From NCBI GenBank assembly GCA_902604695.1, contig CACKZT010000005.1, positions 1-57,660 on the forward strand: 57,660 bases of DNA, written 5' to 3'. Made by a program: the position numbers and the translations under genes. Of this stretch, positions 52,761 to 57,660 are shown piece by piece. The notes under the pieces were generated by a model. The model saw only the letters and a program-made list of their open reading frames with translations, was not told where the DNA came from and did not search any database. The DNA is from an uncultured Pelagibacteraceae bacterium (lineage in GTDB: Bacteria; Pseudomonadota; Alphaproteobacteria; Pelagibacterales; Pelagibacteraceae). Numbering within the stretch: position 1 is the first letter of the stretch; the number at the start of each line of letters is the position of its first letter.

Positions 52761-53191
52761 AGTTGAGGAATTAATTGAGAAGCTACTTTCTTTGATAATC
52801 CCATATATTTGATTTTTTTAATAGCTTCTAAATTAGATTTATCATTTCCAACTACTACAAAACCGATCATACCCATAACTTTATGAGGTGTGCATTGATA
52901 TGCGTAGATACCCGGTTTATCAAATTTGTACTCAGCATCCTTGCTCATATTAGATCTAAAATCAGATACACCTTCTGGAACGCCGCCTGGTATAAATTCA
53001 ACGTTATGACCCGGATCTGTAGATTTCCATAGAACTTTTTCACCGACATTTATTCTTATGATTTTTTTTGAGTAAACCATTACTTCATCACCTTGCTTAT
53101 TTAACATCTCAACAGTAATGTCTTGAGCAAAACTAATATTCGAAAGTAAAAGCAAATGGATAAACAAAAATGATTTAATAATATTTTTCAT
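52757..53191 (-). CDS. Pseudoazurin-type blue copper protein
   Basis: Periplasmic type 1 copper electron carrier. Signal peptide 1-22 (ends SFAQ), then the cupredoxin with ligands His62 (PGHNV), Cys100, His103 and Met108 (C-x2-H-x4-M), the spacing of pseudoazurin. A C-terminal helical tail after residue 115 is also typical. Length 144. Pseudoazurins often feed nitrite or N2O reductases, neither of which is in this window, so its partner is unknown. Confidence 0.88.
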   Translation of the reverse strand: MKNIIKSFLFIHLLLLSNISFAQDITVEMLNKQGDEVMVYSKKIIRINVGEKVLWKSTDPGHNVEFIPGGVPEGVSDFRSNMSKDAEYKFDKPGIYAYQCTPHKVMGMIGFVVVGNDKSNLEAIKKIKYMGLSKKVASQLIPQL

Positions 53192-53257
53192 GAGATGTTT
53201 TAATGTTATTAGATTATAGAAAAATAAATTTATTTCGTCAATTAAGAAAAATATAAA

Positions 53258-53368
53258 TCATCTTTTTTTTCTCTTAAAACTACCTTTTCCTTTCTTAGGT
53301 CTAACAACTCTTTTTCTATATTTTCTTGAGAATAAATCAATCGCAAATTTATTTCTTTTTTTTGTCAA
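53258..53368 (-). CDS. arfA: Probable alternative ribosome-rescue factor ArfA
   Basis: A 36-residue frame from TTG 53368 to TGA 53258-53260. The sequence DLFSRKYRKRVVRPKKGKGSFKRKK resembles the conserved core of ArfA, [21 protein letters not shown], that recruits RF2 to ribosomes stalled on non-stop mRNA. The start overlaps the stop of the winged-helix regulator (TTGA), so the two are translationally coupled. The protein ends soon after the core, which is what truncated active ArfA looks like. The match is by eye, so the call is probable, not certain. Confidence 0.6.
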   Translation of the reverse strand: MTKKRNKFAIDLFSRKYRKRVVRPKKGKGSFKRKKR

Positions 53369-54003
53369 ATCGAGTAGCCTACCTTTTCGCTAATTAAAAA
53401 CTTTTCATCTTGGAACTCATCCATAATTTTTTTTCTCAATCTATAAATATGTGTTTCAACAGTGTGTGTATCCGCATCCGAAGCATAACTCCAAACCTCT
53501 TTTAAAATTTGTTTTTTGCTAATTGGTTTTTTTTTCGTGAGCAAAGTTTCTAGTAGTTGAATTTCTTTCTCAGTCAACTCAATAAATGAATTATTTTTTT
53601 TTAATTTTCTCTCATTTTTATCAAGTAGATATCCTTTTATTTCAACAGAGGAATTTTCATTGAAAATTCTACTAGTTATCTTTTGAAGTATCAGTTTATT
53701 TAAGTTTGAAATATTTAACGGTAAATTAATTAACATATCATGCTTAAAATTTATATTTGATTTTGAATTAGATATAACGATCTTCAAGTTTGATTTTAGT
53801 GAATTAACTTGATTTATTTTTGATGTATCTTTTAAAGAATTTAGCTCTACAAGAAGCGGTTTATTCTCATTTATGCCCTTATCTTGATAATCTTTCAAAG
53901 GAACAATGTTAAATTTTAAATCTTCTTTAAGTTCCATCATTGAATTGATAAAGTCATCAGAACCAATAAAATAAACATCTGGCTTATTTTTTTGCATATG
54001 CAT
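53365..54003 (-). CDS. OmpR-type winged-helix regulator with degenerate receiver
   Basis: 212 residues. The C-terminal domain (about 125-212) is an OmpR/PhoB winged helix: ELTEKEIQLLETLLTKK, KKQILKEVWSYASDADTHTVETHIYRLRKKI, and EKVGYSI. The N-terminal half has a receiver-like pattern (VYFIGSDDFI, LLVELNS, LKIVISNS), but the phosphoacceptor Asp is not present; Glu or Asn sits at its expected place. It may act without phosphorylation. Two starts are possible (54003 or 53997) inside a palindrome shared with the divergent gene. It overlaps the ArfA candidate at its 3' end. No kinase is adjacent. Confidence 0.8.
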   Translation of the reverse strand: MHMQKNKPDVYFIGSDDFINSMMELKEDLKFNIVPLKDYQDKGINENKPLLVELNSLKDTSKINQVNSLKSNLKIVISNSKSNINFKHDMLINLPLNISNLNKLILQKITSRIFNENSSVEIKGYLLDKNERKLKKNNSFIELTEKEIQLLETLLTKKKPISKKQILKEVWSYASDADTHTVETHIYRLRKKIMDEFQDEKFLISEKVGYSI

Positions 54004-54489
54004 ATTAAATTAATAAATAGAATACTACACTTTAGTAGATATAAAGTAAAATGTGCTATTGGTAAAAAGGGTGTTGTTGGCAAAAAAAGAGAGGGTGATT
54101 TGTCAACTCCAAAAGGTAAATTTAGCTTTAACTCAATTTATTACAGGAGTGATCGAGTAAAAAAAATTACAAGTAAACTAAATGTTTATAAAATAAAAAA
54201 GAATATGGGTTGGTGTGATGACTCCGCCTCAAAAGATTACAATAAATTAATTTATTTTCCTTATAAGTATAGTGCAGAAAAACTATATTTAAAAAAAAAT
54301 ATATATGACATTATTATTGTCATTAATTACAACACACGAATAATTAAAAAGAAAAAAGGCAGTGCAATATTTCTTCACATATCCACAAAAAAATATTCTC
54401 CTACAAAGGGTTGCATTGCTGTAAAAAAACAAGATATGAAAAAATTAATAAAATTTATTAATAAAAAAACAAAGATTCAAATTCTCTAA
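53998..54489 (+). CDS. L,D-transpeptidase (YkuD-domain) family protein
   Basis: About 163 residues. The YkuD motifs are KREGDLSTPKGKFSF at the front and AIFLHISTKKYSPTKGCIAV with the catalytic Cys near residue 140. These enzymes make or edit 3-3 peptidoglycan cross-links or attach lipoproteins. No signal peptide or membrane span is visible, which is unusual for a periplasmic enzyme, though alphaproteobacterial members of this subgroup often lack one. I take the ATG at 53998 rather than the TTG at 53992. It ends with a four-base overlap with yggS. Confidence 0.82.
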   Translation: MHIKLINRILHFSRYKVKCAIGKKGVVGKKREGDLSTPKGKFSFNSIYYRSDRVKKITSKLNVYKIKKNMGWCDDSASKDYNKLIYFPYKYSAEKLYLKKNIYDIIIVINYNTRIIKKKKGSAIFLHISTKKYSPTKGCIAVKKQDMKKLIKFINKKTKIQIL

Positions 54490-55124
54490 GAACGATCTCC
54501 AAAAATTATACTACCTAATCTAAGATGGGTAGCTTTATATTTTATTGCAGTTTTATAATCTGCAGACATCCCCATACTCAAATCTTTTAAACCCAGGGAA
54601 GCACTCGCTTCATATAAAAATTTAAAATGTTTATCCTCATTTCCATCATTTGGTGGAATAGCCATTAATCCAAGAATTTCTAAATTTTTTTCTTTAGTAC
54701 AATAATTATAAAAACTATCTATTTCGTTAGGAGGTATCCCGGATTTTTGATTTTCCATACCCACATTAACTTGAATGAAATATTTTAGTTTCTTATTTAA
54801 ACTTTTTTCATATTTTTCCAAACTATCGGCAAGTTTTTGAGAATCTAAGGAGTGTATATAATCAAACAATTCTACAGCCTTTTTGGATTTATTAGATTGC
54901 AGTTTCCCAATTAAATGGAGTTTAATTTTATTTGGTTCAGATTTTAATTTTTTCCACTTAGTTTCAGCTTCTTGAACTTTATTTTCACCAAAGTGTAAAT
55001 GTCCTGCTTCTATTAATGGAGCTATATAATCGAATGAAAAAGTTTTGCTAACGGCTATAATAGTAATATCTTCATTATTAATATAAGATTTTATTTTATT
55101 AAAACGATCAACTATTATGCTCAT
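54486..55124 (-). CDS. YggS/PLPBP pyridoxal-phosphate homeostasis protein
   Basis: Single-domain PLP-binding protein that buffers pyridoxal phosphate. Family features: the PLP lysine in IIAVSKTF (Lys27), HFGENKVQEAETK, HLIGKLQSNK, VNVGMENQKSG, SMGMSADY and LRLGSIIFGDR. Length 212. It starts two bases from the divergent ThiE-like gene and converges on the L,D-transpeptidase gene. Confidence 0.94.
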   Translation of the reverse strand: MSIIVDRFNKIKSYINNEDITIIAVSKTFSFDYIAPLIEAGHLHFGENKVQEAETKWKKLKSEPNKIKLHLIGKLQSNKSKKAVELFDYIHSLDSQKLADSLEKYEKSLNKKLKYFIQVNVGMENQKSGIPPNEIDSFYNYCTKEKNLEILGLMAIPPNDGNEDKHFKFLYEASASLGLKDLSMGMSADYKTAIKYKATHLRLGSIIFGDRS

Positions 55125-55126
55125 AA

Positions 55127-55696
55127 ATGTTTGCTTTTAAAAATTATTATTATTTATACATCGAGAATACAAAAATATTAAATCTTAATTCAATAAAAAA
55201 AAGAAATAGATTTATAGTAATATATAGAAATGCTCGAAAAAATGAGTCAATTGAGGCTCTTATAAAGTTTAGAAGAAAATGTAAGGAAAGAGGCGTACTT
55301 TTTTTTGTAGCTAATGAATACAGATTGGTTAATAAACTAAATGCAGATGGAATATATTTATCTGCCCATAATAAAAGTTTTAAATATCTTAATTACAAAA
55401 ATCATAAATTGATCATCGGATCTGCTCATAATTTCAAAGAAATTTCAAATAAAAGAACGCAAGGTTGCAAGAAAGTAATTCTTTCGAGACTTTTTAAAAC
55501 TGACTACAAAAATAAGAGGGGGTATTTAGGTGTTATTAGATTTAACTTAATTATAAATAATGAAAAAAATAATATAATTCCACTAGGTGGAATTAGACTA
55601 AATAATCTAAATTATCTTAAGATTGTTAGAACGAACTCTTTTGCTATTTTAAGTGAGATAAAAAAAAAGCCGGCTATTTCTAGCCGGCTTTTTTAA
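55127..55696 (+). CDS. ThiE/TenI-like thiamine phosphate synthase family protein, diverged
   Basis: 189 residues of TIM-barrel type. RGVLFFVANEYRLVNKLNADGIYLS matches the ThiE strand that carries ADGVHLGQ, IIGSAHNFKEI matches IGVSTHN, and IIPLGGIRLNNL matches the phosphate-binding GGI loop. Some ThiE active-site residues look changed, such as the Gln/Asp after HLG. Thus it may join HMP and thiazole phosphates or be a TenI-like relative. Its last eleven codons form one strand of a strong terminator hairpin. It starts two bases from yggS. Confidence 0.7.
   Translation: MFAFKNYYYLYIENTKILNLNSIKKRNRFIVIYRNARKNESIEALIKFRRKCKERGVLFFVANEYRLVNKLNADGIYLSAHNKSFKYLNYKNHKLIIGSAHNFKEISNKRTQGCKKVILSRLFKTDYKNKRGYLGVIRFNLIINNEKNNIIPLGGIRLNNLNYLKIVRTNSFAILSEIKKKPAISSRLF
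55663..55694. terminator. Bidirectional terminator inside the end of the ThiE-like gene
   Basis: A 14-bp perfect stem, AAAAAAGCCGGCTA (55663-55676), loop TTTC, TAGCCGGCTTTTTT (55681-55694), with T-runs on either strand. It is the most G/C-rich hairpin in the window. It lies in the last codons of the ThiE-like ORF (encoding about KKKPAISSRLF) and 17 bases past the stop of the convergent porin gene, so it can stop transcription from both sides. Confidence 0.92.
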
Positions 55697-55711
55697 ATAG
55701 TTTAAACTATA

Positions 55712-56812
55712 CTAAAACGCCATAGCCATAGTAAAGATTGTTTCTTTATTATCTTTACCTAATGCGTATGCATCATTCTCATATTCTTCATGAGTTATCG
55801 CTAATGTTGCTCCACCAATAGTGTAAGCAGCTTGTATAGAAGTTATTTCAAGCTCTACAGCATTATCTGTGTGCGCTGCGTTTGCTTTAGTAATCGTTCT
55901 TTTATTGGCTTCTGATTTTTCAATATCGTAAGATAGTGAAAGATTGTCATTAACTGCAAAACCAATAGATAAAGCGTCGTTTTCAAAAAACTCAACGGCT
56001 TTTAAAGTTGTTGAGCTTAATGCAGTACCAGATGCAACTGTTGTGAACGCTGTAGATCCTGGTGCGTAGTAGTTTTTGTTATAACCCACTGAGAAAGCTC
56101 CCATTGAGTATTTAGCAAAATATCCACCAGACTCATCTTCTTGTTTTGTGTCCGCATCGTCGTCATCTTTTAAGTAAGAAGCTCCGATAGATAATCCATC
56201 CATTGGTGCAGCCATTACTTGGTAAGATACTACGTTGTTATTTTTTACGCCACCGTTAGCTCCGGGATTAGCCATTCCGTGTGCCATTTGACTAGCTTGT
56301 TGTCCTGGTGCGTAACCAACAGCTACACTCATTCCTAATGGAAGTGCATCTGCAGCAGTTTTGAATTGAATGTTATTGTAACCATTCAAACCGTTACCGT
56401 AAGTGATTCCACCACCGTAACCGTTATCAGAACCGATACCGTATGCTGAGCCAGCGTGTTTGTATTTTGTTGATAGGTTTCCTTCTGAAGTCATAATACC
56501 AATTGTACCAAAGTCTGTAGTTAGTACTAATTGAGTATCGTCAGATGTTGTTGCTCCACCAGCAGCAGGATCCATTTCAGTTTGCCATTTCCATGACATT
56601 CCGTTGTCCAACTCGCCAGTACCAACAAATGTTATTTCGTTCGATAGACCGATTGCTTTACCTCTATCATTACCGCCAGTGTCTGAGTCAGTAGATGAGA
56701 TATTGTAAGAAGCCTTTGCAGAACCTGTTACAGATAGTTCACCAGCGTTTACTGAAGAAATAATTGCAAAAGAACTAATAAGAACGAACATTAGTTTCAT
56801 TATGTTTTTCAT
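55712..56812 (-). CDS. Outer-membrane porin
   Basis: 366-residue beta-barrel protein. Signal peptide 1-23 (ends SVNA), alternating strand pattern such as LSVTGSAKASYNIS, GMSWKWQTEMDP and LVLTTDFGTIGIMTSEG, rich in Gly, Asp and Asn, and a C-terminal phenylalanine (TMAMAF) as needed for outer-membrane insertion. It resembles the general porins of alphaproteobacteria. Codons are richer in G/C than those of its neighbours, as often seen in highly expressed genes. A Shine-Dalgarno AAGGA lies eight bases before the ATG. Substrate unknown. Confidence 0.88.
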   Translation of the reverse strand: MKNIMKLMFVLISSFAIISSVNAGELSVTGSAKASYNISSTDSDTGGNDRGKAIGLSNEITFVGTGELDNGMSWKWQTEMDPAAGGATTSDDTQLVLTTDFGTIGIMTSEGNLSTKYKHAGSAYGIGSDNGYGGGITYGNGLNGYNNIQFKTAADALPLGMSVAVGYAPGQQASQMAHGMANPGANGGVKNNNVVSYQVMAAPMDGLSIGASYLKDDDDADTKQEDESGGYFAKYSMGAFSVGYNKNYYAPGSTAFTTVASGTALSSTTLKAVEFFENDALSIGFAVNDNLSLSYDIEKSEANKRTITKANAAHTDNAVELEITSIQAAYTIGGATLAITHEEYENDAYALGKDNKETIFTMAMAF

Positions 56813-56835
56813 ATTTATCCTTTGTTTGTTTATCT

Positions 56836-56851
56836 TAAGTTAATTAACTTA
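56836..56851. promoter_or_regulatory. 16-base perfect palindrome upstream of the porin start
   Basis: TAAGTTAATTAACTTA is its own reverse complement. It lies 24 bases before the porin ATG, between it and the rest of the 222-base porin/DUF3576 gap. Its position would suit an operator or a leader-mRNA element. The rest of the gap is plain A/T-rich sequence that should hold the promoters for both genes. Confidence 0.4.
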
Positions 56852-57034
56852 TAACAATGGATTTATATTAAAATTTGATGCTGAAATGGTCGAAAAACTT
56901 ATATAAACCGCTTTTATTTTATTATTTGTTGCAATTTTATCACACCTAAAAACCGCTGTAAAAGGCTGAAAATCGTAGTTGTATTATTGTTTGCTTTTAT
57001 TTGGCCAATTTTTCAAATAATGCTAATAGATACT

Positions 57035-57568
57035 ATGAAATTTTCCAAGAAAATGAGACCTTTTTTGCTTTTACCACTGTTAATATTTCTTTTAAATTGC
57101 GAAGCTATAAAACCAAAAAAAGTTAATGTTAAGGAAACCCCTATAAACGCACAAGAAAGAGCAAAAAAAAATGTTAAAGAAGGAAGAGGTGTTTCTATTG
57201 GTACAGTTATTGGAAGAGGAAGAGGAGGTGGTAGCTATGAATTTAGTTCTTCAAATCCAATGTGGAGAGCTTCTTTAGAAACCTTAGATTTTTTACCTTT
57301 AACAACAGTTGATTATTCGGGAGGAGTAATAATCTCGGATTGGTATAATGACTCGGCTAATAAAGATGACTCGATAAAAATTACAGTGAGATTCCTTTCT
57401 AATGAAATATTATCAAATAGCTTAAAGATTATAGTACATAAAAAATCCTGCGATGCTAATAATAGATGTCAAATAAATATAATAGACTCAAAGATTAAAG
57501 AGGAATTAGTAAAAGCAATTTTGAGTAGAGCAGCAGTCTTTGAAAAAGAAAAAAAGAAAAAAAAATAA
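57035..57568 (+). CDS. DUF3576-type lipoprotein
   Basis: About 177 residues from the ATG at 57035. Signal peptide with lipobox LLNC (hydrophobic LLLPLLIFLLNC), then a conserved-looking core GVSIGTVIGRGRGGG, NPMWRASLETLDFLPL and SGGVIISDWYND, which I recognise as the alphaproteobacterial DUF3576 protein found just upstream of leuS. Outer-membrane or periplasmic; role unknown. An upstream TTG start at 56987 would bury the signal peptide, so I reject it. Confidence 0.8.
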   Translation: MKFSKKMRPFLLLPLLIFLLNCEAIKPKKVNVKETPINAQERAKKNVKEGRGVSIGTVIGRGRGGGSYEFSSSNPMWRASLETLDFLPLTTVDYSGGVIISDWYNDSANKDDSIKITVRFLSNEILSNSLKIIVHKKSCDANNRCQINIIDSKIKEELVKAILSRAAVFEKEKKKKK

Positions 57569-57577
57569 TATATTTAA

Positions 57578-57660
57578 ATGGAAAGAGTAAATTTTCATTC
57601 GATTGAAAAAAAGTGGCAATCAAATTGGAATAAAAAAAAATTATATAGACCTAAAAGTAG
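57578..57660 (+). CDS. leuS: Leucyl-tRNA synthetase, first 27 codons
   Basis: ATG 57578 opens MERVNFHSIEKKWQSNW, the characteristic LeuRS N-terminus (NxxxIExKWQ-type). The gene runs off the right edge. Its place after a DUF3576 gene is the standard alphaproteobacterial order, so the call is strong despite the short length. Confidence 0.85.
   Translation, partial: MERVNFHSIEKKWQSNWNKKKLYRPKS

Follow-up and report, generated by a model that had tools for sequence, protein, structure and literature searches.

The right end of the window, by which we mean the whole stretch of 57,660 nt that was analysed, raises the question of why a terminator-like hairpin lies inside the last codons of a protein-coding gene, and which of the two transcripts that converge on it needs the hairpin. 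A preliminary description of this DNA had assigned the hairpin both to the C-terminal codons of a thiE-like gene and to the end of the convergent porin transcript, and had suggested that the last codons were annexed through loss of a stop codon.

A hairpin in the last codons of the thiE-like gene

The window is part of the draft genome G000 (815 kb, 78.6% complete), whose named relatives in our search are Pelagibacteraceae (SAR11). At its right end the thiE-like gene and the porin gene are convergent (Table 1), and the distance between their ends is so short (15 bp) that the proposed terminator falls within the final 11 codons of the thiE-like gene. The order of elements over this gene end is A9 - GCCGGCTA TTTC TAGCCGGC - T6, and it is correct, as had been described, that the hairpin forms the last codons of the gene: A9, a perfect GC-rich stem and T6 at 55660-55696 fall inside KKKPAISSRLF and the stop.

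Table 1. Features of the thiE-like/porin junction (positions in the window).
Feature	Position	Strand	Remarks
thiE-like gene (TMP-TENI, 189 aa)	55127..55696	+	ORF; PF02581 profile; TIM-barrel model; last 11 codons contain hairpin
Codons 179-189 (KKKPAISSRLF) and TAA	55661..55696	+	AAA AAA AAG CCG GCT ATT TCT AGC CGG CTT TTT TAA
A9 on plus strand, U9 tract of the proposed porin terminator	55660..55668	-	run of exactly 9 in 111/112 T-tract-class loci
GC-rich stem-loop core GCCGGCTATTTCTAGCCGGC	55669..55688	-	proposed terminator hairpin of the porin transcript
T6, U tract in thiE direction	55689..55694	+	its final T opens the stop codon
Stop TAA of the thiE-like gene	55694-55696	+	
Spacer between the two stop codons, 15 bp	55697..55711	none	holds the small palindrome atagtttaaactat (55698-55711)
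Convergent porin (Porin_4)	55712..56812	-	PF13609, E 5.2e-9

As the stem of an intrinsic terminator we accepted a GC-rich helix of at least 5 pairs with a short loop. The porin-strand hairpin is GC-rich by this definition, with 14 pairs (6 G-C), a loop of 4 and an energy of -21.4 kcal/mol (z -6.1), and none of the other three terminator-like sites in 53000-57660 has a stem as long as this one at 55663-55694. U tract and position are also those of an intrinsic terminator, with U9 directly after the stem on the porin strand and 17 nt between the porin stop and the stem. The core is a perfect palindrome in G000 and so folds on the plus strand too; the fold z-score lies between -5.1 and -6.1 for both strands, a value that no dinucleotide shuffle out of 200 equalled. 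The scan of 53000-57660 listed the hairpin on the minus strand only, whereas the canonical-terminator scan and both folds gave terminator anatomy on both strands.

The pattern AAAAAGCC-N6-20-GGCTTTTT has no second copy in the 815 kb draft, and an Rfam scan of 53000-57660 gave no match at gathering score. The canonical-terminator scan covered 297,660 bases (36.5% of G000; the window and L122-L133) and yielded 6 sites, among which only the thiE-like/porin hairpin overlaps an ORF of at least 80 aa; the baseline for overlap of terminators with coding ends refers to this sampled part of G000 alone. Because canonical hairpin-plus-T-tract terminators are this rare in the sampled part, most transcripts of G000 probably end otherwise. 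A search for the alpha tmRNA, which would bear on the rescue of thiE RNAs truncated ahead of their stop, gave no match in the 78.6% complete draft.

The thiE-like protein and its C-terminal tail

The encoded protein matches the TMP-TENI family profile PF02581 at residues 30-178 (E 3.2e-14, 53.1 bits, cut-off 27). Against TIGR00693, the NCBIfam ThiE equivalog, it reaches only 43.3 bits with a cut-off of 145.1, and we therefore name it thiE-like only. The AlphaFold2 model is a TIM barrel (mean pLDDT 83.6), the best PDB structure matches of which are thiamine phosphate synthases (Z 15-17); superposed on B. subtilis ThiE it gives Z 16, with residues 5-189 on 23-225, and thus has the ThiE fold. A short final helix is placed over the tail at a pLDDT of about 52, so the C-terminal helix itself is weakly predicted.

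The preliminary description had considered that the normal C-terminus of the family may be shorter. The Pfam domain does end at 178, but the other evidence runs on: the TIGR00693 match reaches 188 of 197, with 9 profile positions still beyond, the model has its final helix there, and the alignment to B. subtilis ThiE continues to the last residue. Relatives in the genus without an in-frame hairpin moreover have a tail of about equal length. Based on these observations, we regard the hairpin as covering an ordinary C-terminal element and not an addition. L081, L087 and L089, three relatives at a greater distance, encode a shorter protein and have the hairpin past the stop, and given these an annexation of the hairpin by the thiE-like end is possible in other lineages.

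A second, more distant ThiE homologue was found in a number of genomes of the family (about 24-33% identity, ORFs mostly 207-256 aa), and the gene in the window is thus perhaps not the canonical ThiE. The thiE-like copy of genome G144 (L010:1501-2067) has an intact 3' hairpin, yet four in-frame TAA codons fall among its codons 1-22; either the N-terminus has decayed or translation starts later.

Distribution of the overlap among relatives

In total 169 genomes of the genus were searched, 137 of which gave a good thiE match; 111 of these were examined and 26 left out. Of the 111, 99 show the in-frame overlap, and a stop-codon loss in a single strain is not supported by this distribution. The 12 genomes without overlap form two groups nested on the tree; 11 of them have the hairpin past the stop, and in one no hairpin was found. 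Orthologues with the hairpin after an upstream stop, which the preliminary description had named as the observation that would point to such a loss, are thus a minority, nested state. If only the A run is considered, the count becomes 100 genus loci, as L178 retains an A8 run without hairpin; from the 11 genus loci without A run a GCCG...CGGC hairpin near the stop is absent. The porin was also sought in 23 genomes without a strong thiE match and was found in one, near a contig end (12 further hitless genomes were outside this search); thiE and porin are absent together, perhaps through assembly gaps.

Over genus and family we scanned 178 junction loci, 162 of them distinct. The thiE-like reading frame stops in the T tract in 113, past the tract in 27, before the core in 14, in the right arm in 2, in the loop in 1 and in the left arm in 1, while 4 were scored as lacking a hairpin; one of the four, L182, was missed by the finder since its loop exceeds the limit of 9, and has an in-frame GCCGGC hairpin. 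L073 and L086, from different lineages, have their stop codon inside the terminator stem-loop (loop and left arm). A related lineage of 21 loci carries a GCCGGC- or GCCGGT-type hairpin in another frame, with DKKKAGKYMPAFLKNNF-like tails, and translation ends past the hairpin. Other stems (CCGGCC, CGGCC, GGCCCC) occur in more distant relatives, with the stop before, inside or after the stem.

For comparison of stems we used 108 distinct overlap loci of the GCCG type, comprising the 99 of the genus, L006, L009, L013 and L014 (coded as other genus) and L047, L048 and L050-L052 (further genome records). The pattern that selects these loci fixes the outer bases (GCCG, CCGGC), so their invariance is in part by construction, and because of this bias codon and pair-4 counts were redone from the stop codon, free of any pattern, over the 111 genus loci. 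L079, L082, L083, L084, L088 and L090, of the T-tract class but from other genera, are outside the 108, and five of them are inside the 112 loci used for tract counts. L033-L053 may be biased towards overlap, as the scan that yielded them used the tail peptide as one of six patterns; the genus count excludes them.

Phylogenetic history of the proposed terminator

Both a FastTree phylogeny of 150 proteins with the tail removed (12 of the 162 loci were omitted, the match being short or starting after residue 20) and an IQ-TREE phylogeny of 58 place the loci without overlap as two groups inside the overlap group. From this topology the overlap would seem to date far back in the genus, and the terminator would have left the codons on two later occasions with a new stem (GGGGCG or GGGGGCC). 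In the AU test the constraint of all overlap rows to one clade was not rejected (p-AU 0.244); relocation of the terminator out of the codons is favoured, not proven. L178, a member of one of the non-overlap groups, carries A8GGCC at the former site as a relic. At L129:290-308 of G000 we noted a terminator core, GGGGCGAAAAAATCGCCCC, which matches the core of the relocated porin terminator in L178 letter for letter; it follows a 618-aa gene that we take to resemble a solute symporter. The identity hints at copying or at a shared optimum.

In the after-stop group of five loci the tail still holds Pro in 4/5, R-x-F in 4/5 and K-K-P in 2/5, written with CCA/CCT for Pro and CGT/CGC/CGA for Arg, so the codons seem to have relaxed ahead of the amino acids. 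In the other after-stop group the tail amino acids have drifted too. The stop-to-stop spacer has a median of 18 bp in the T-tract class (range -48 to 23, n=111, the loci with usable porin among 114) and of 71 bp where the hairpin is past the stop (48-79, n=11), which is about 50 bp longer.

Constraint on reading frame and codons

All 108 GCCG-type loci carry the hairpin in the same frame. Core lengths of 23 nt (61 loci) and 20 nt (47 loci) are the only ones that occur, and the core length thus changes by multiples of three. Where the hairpin is past the stop, in the 11 nested loci, the core has 16 to 19 nt, in any frame, and only two fall into the same class (108/108 vs 2/11, Fisher p = 5.7e-12, calculated on loci that are not independent). 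In 99 of 99 overlapped genus loci Pro is written as CCG, Arg as CGG and KKK as AAA AAA AAG. CGG is the rarest sense codon sampled, with 16 occurrences in 87,889, and CCG makes up 7% of Pro codons.

Strand asymmetry of stem variants

A G.U pair on the RNA of one strand appears as a C.A mismatch on the RNA of the other, and we used this wobble asymmetry to ask on which strand the hairpin is kept. Within the outer seven core pairs of the 108 loci, C.A or A.C on the plus strand was found in 43 and G.T or T.G in none. In the porin RNA these 43 variants still pair, as U.G or G.U wobbles, whereas the thiE RNA is left with a mismatch, and the structure that G000 has on both strands is therefore not kept on both in its relatives. 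G.T on the plus strand was likewise absent from the outer eight pairs (0/108), and a finder treating both kinds of mismatch alike gave 49 vs 0 loci (n=112). As the loci are related, variant and frame counts are non-independent events; on the tree the C.A state must have been gained or lost 19 times or more, and a ratio of 19:0 has p = 3.8e-6 under equal chance.

The asymmetry leans on pair 5, which is C.G in 63, C.A in 40 and T.A in 5 of the 108 loci. Tolerance of a Ser to Asn exchange could favour C.A at this pair, an objection that pair 4 and the tracts answer in part. The plus-strand base of pair 4 is the third position of a Ser, Asn, Arg, Asp or Gly codon; a change from C to T there is silent, would leave G.U on the thiE RNA and is favoured by codon usage in this AT-rich genome (AGC is 28% of AGY, AAC 19% of AAY). 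All 99 overlapped genus loci nevertheless have C at this base. The exceptions among stems are one locus with a T.C mismatch at pair 6 and one with G.T at the loop-side pair 9.

A similar difference was found for the two tracts. The A run is exactly A9 in 111 of 112 loci, while the plus-strand T run has 6 bases in 93 and is shorter in 19; among the first five T-tract bases on the plus strand, C occurs in 8/108 and a final A in 6/108. Of the 11 nested loci whose hairpin is past the stop, 10 have A9 as well. The mean core energy over the 108 loci is -14.07 kcal/mol on the minus and -12.06 kcal/mol on the plus strand, and the core is better by more than 0.5 kcal/mol on the minus strand in 68 loci and on the plus strand in 16. 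Strand asymmetry, constancy of U9 and codon choice across the relatives support the earlier proposal that this coding end is under selection for RNA structure. The proposed connection of the hairpin with the convergent porin likewise agrees with the variants, which favour the porin RNA; that the porin transcript ends here we infer from anatomy and comparison.

Discussion

With a probability of about 0.8, and judging by sequence comparison, we consider the hairpin to be the intrinsic terminator of the porin gene, which selection maintains on the porin strand, within codons whose frame is maintained by selection on thiE. RNA polymerase transcribing the porin gene would meet the hairpin shortly after the porin stop and would be released by hairpin and U9, whereas thiE ribosomes would read through the same bases to the TAA. 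Because the terminator lies within codons, two constraints would fall on one stretch: pairing and U tract on the porin RNA, frame and stop on the thiE strand. Termination in the thiE direction would be at best secondary or dispensable, since many relatives have a mismatched stem or a broken U tract on that side.

A true bidirectional terminator, selected on both strands so that thiE RNAs end at or just past their own stop, is what G000 alone would suggest with its perfect stem on both strands, T6 on plus and U9 on minus, and the T run of 6 is indeed the common state. The mismatches in the thiE RNA of 43 of 108 loci, together with the lack of plus-strand G.T in the outer pairs and a T tract that is broken by C or ended by A in a number of loci, argue against it, and a ribosome trailing the polymerase would be expected to cover the left arm; we consider selection on both strands unlikely, though it deserves to be kept in mind. 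In G000 itself transcription may nonetheless stop in both directions. It is improbable that the hairpin instead stabilises the 3' end of the porin mRNA or shields it from nucleases. Such a function would give an equal strand asymmetry, and the porin may be strongly expressed, but a near-invariant U9 just past the stem is characteristic of intrinsic terminators and recurs with unrelated stems.

Two further explanations concern the codons themselves and have very little in their favour. A recent stop loss in this strain, by which thiE annexed an intergenic terminator, would fit the Pfam domain ending at 178, where the hairpin starts, and the three distant relatives that end earlier with the hairpin past the stop. 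It is very improbable given an overlap common to most of the genus, after-stop forms that are nested on both trees and a tail that aligns with the normal ThiE C-terminus. Even less credible is a conserved protein tail with the palindrome as a by-product of its amino acids. Such a tail would be consistent with the Pro and R-x-F that persist in the five-locus after-stop group (K-K-P less so), yet the same group writes these residues with other codons, AAA AAA AAG, CCG and CGG are fixed in all overlapped genus loci although CCG and CGG are rare, and another lineage reads a GCCGGC hairpin in a different frame as a different peptide.

Within the reading of the hairpin as porin terminator, the Ser/Asn variation might act as a switch of terminator direction: C.G at pair 5 would stop both genes, C.A the porin only, and the thiE RNA would then run antisense across the porin. 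We regard this as a speculative extension that is probably wrong. In the S. aureus sbrB terminator, which faces lexA, a single A.C mispair leads to read-through and antisense RNA (PMC8745188), and because one such mispair sufficed there, antisense thiE RNAs into the porin would be expected in the species with C.A. The sbrB hairpin lies between genes on opposite strands like that of SAR11; as described there, its mispair weakens the terminator of the gene that it serves, whereas the SAR11 mispair is on the strand that seemingly does not depend on the hairpin. If the switch is true, about four in ten sampled loci have a one-way terminator and an excludon-like antisense link, with the direction set by an amino-acid substitution in another protein.

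Rickettsia prowazekii is an alphaproteobacterium. Its convergent gene pairs resemble the present one in belonging to a reduced genome and in having terminators of A-tract, stem and T-tract, with read-through antisense RNA reported there (PMC3027695). In contrast to SAR11, the intergenic regions in the table rows compared measure 137-1910 bp, and codon overlap does not appear in the passages considered. Bidirectional intrinsic terminators between convergent genes and compensatory evolution through G.U are described in the survey of B. cereus (PMC5381666). As in that survey and in TransTermHP (PMC1852404), the SAR11 element has A-tract, GC stem and T-tract tail-to-tail, with G.U wobble as a tolerated intermediate; it differs from the bidirectional terminators reported there in lying wholly in a coding end, in the restriction of outer-stem wobbles to one strand and in selection that acts mostly one way. 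The terminator in the bmrB leader of B. subtilis also lies within a translated reading frame, but it serves attenuation on the same strand sensed by the ribosome, and a role for a gene on the opposite strand does not occur in the relevant passages (PMC4191407). In the literature searched, which left most subscription papers outside and is weak evidence of absence, we found no report of a genus-wide terminator inside the codons of a convergent neighbour. The component parts are of known kinds, and for the genus-wide combination we found no published counterpart.

The wobble-asymmetry test tells which strand depends on a hairpin that lies between convergent genes and is applicable to any such pair, and the present locus shows that two layers of selection are separable by comparison alone. 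Elements of this kind would be missed by searches for structured RNA that are confined to long intergenic regions, as was the Pelagibacter survey of 2009, and the median intergenic length in the Pelagibacter genome is 3 nt (PMC2704228). The junction shows the reach of genome streamlining in these bacteria, in that a putative control element is accommodated entirely in the codons of the neighboring gene, with about 50 bp less spacer than its free-standing form.
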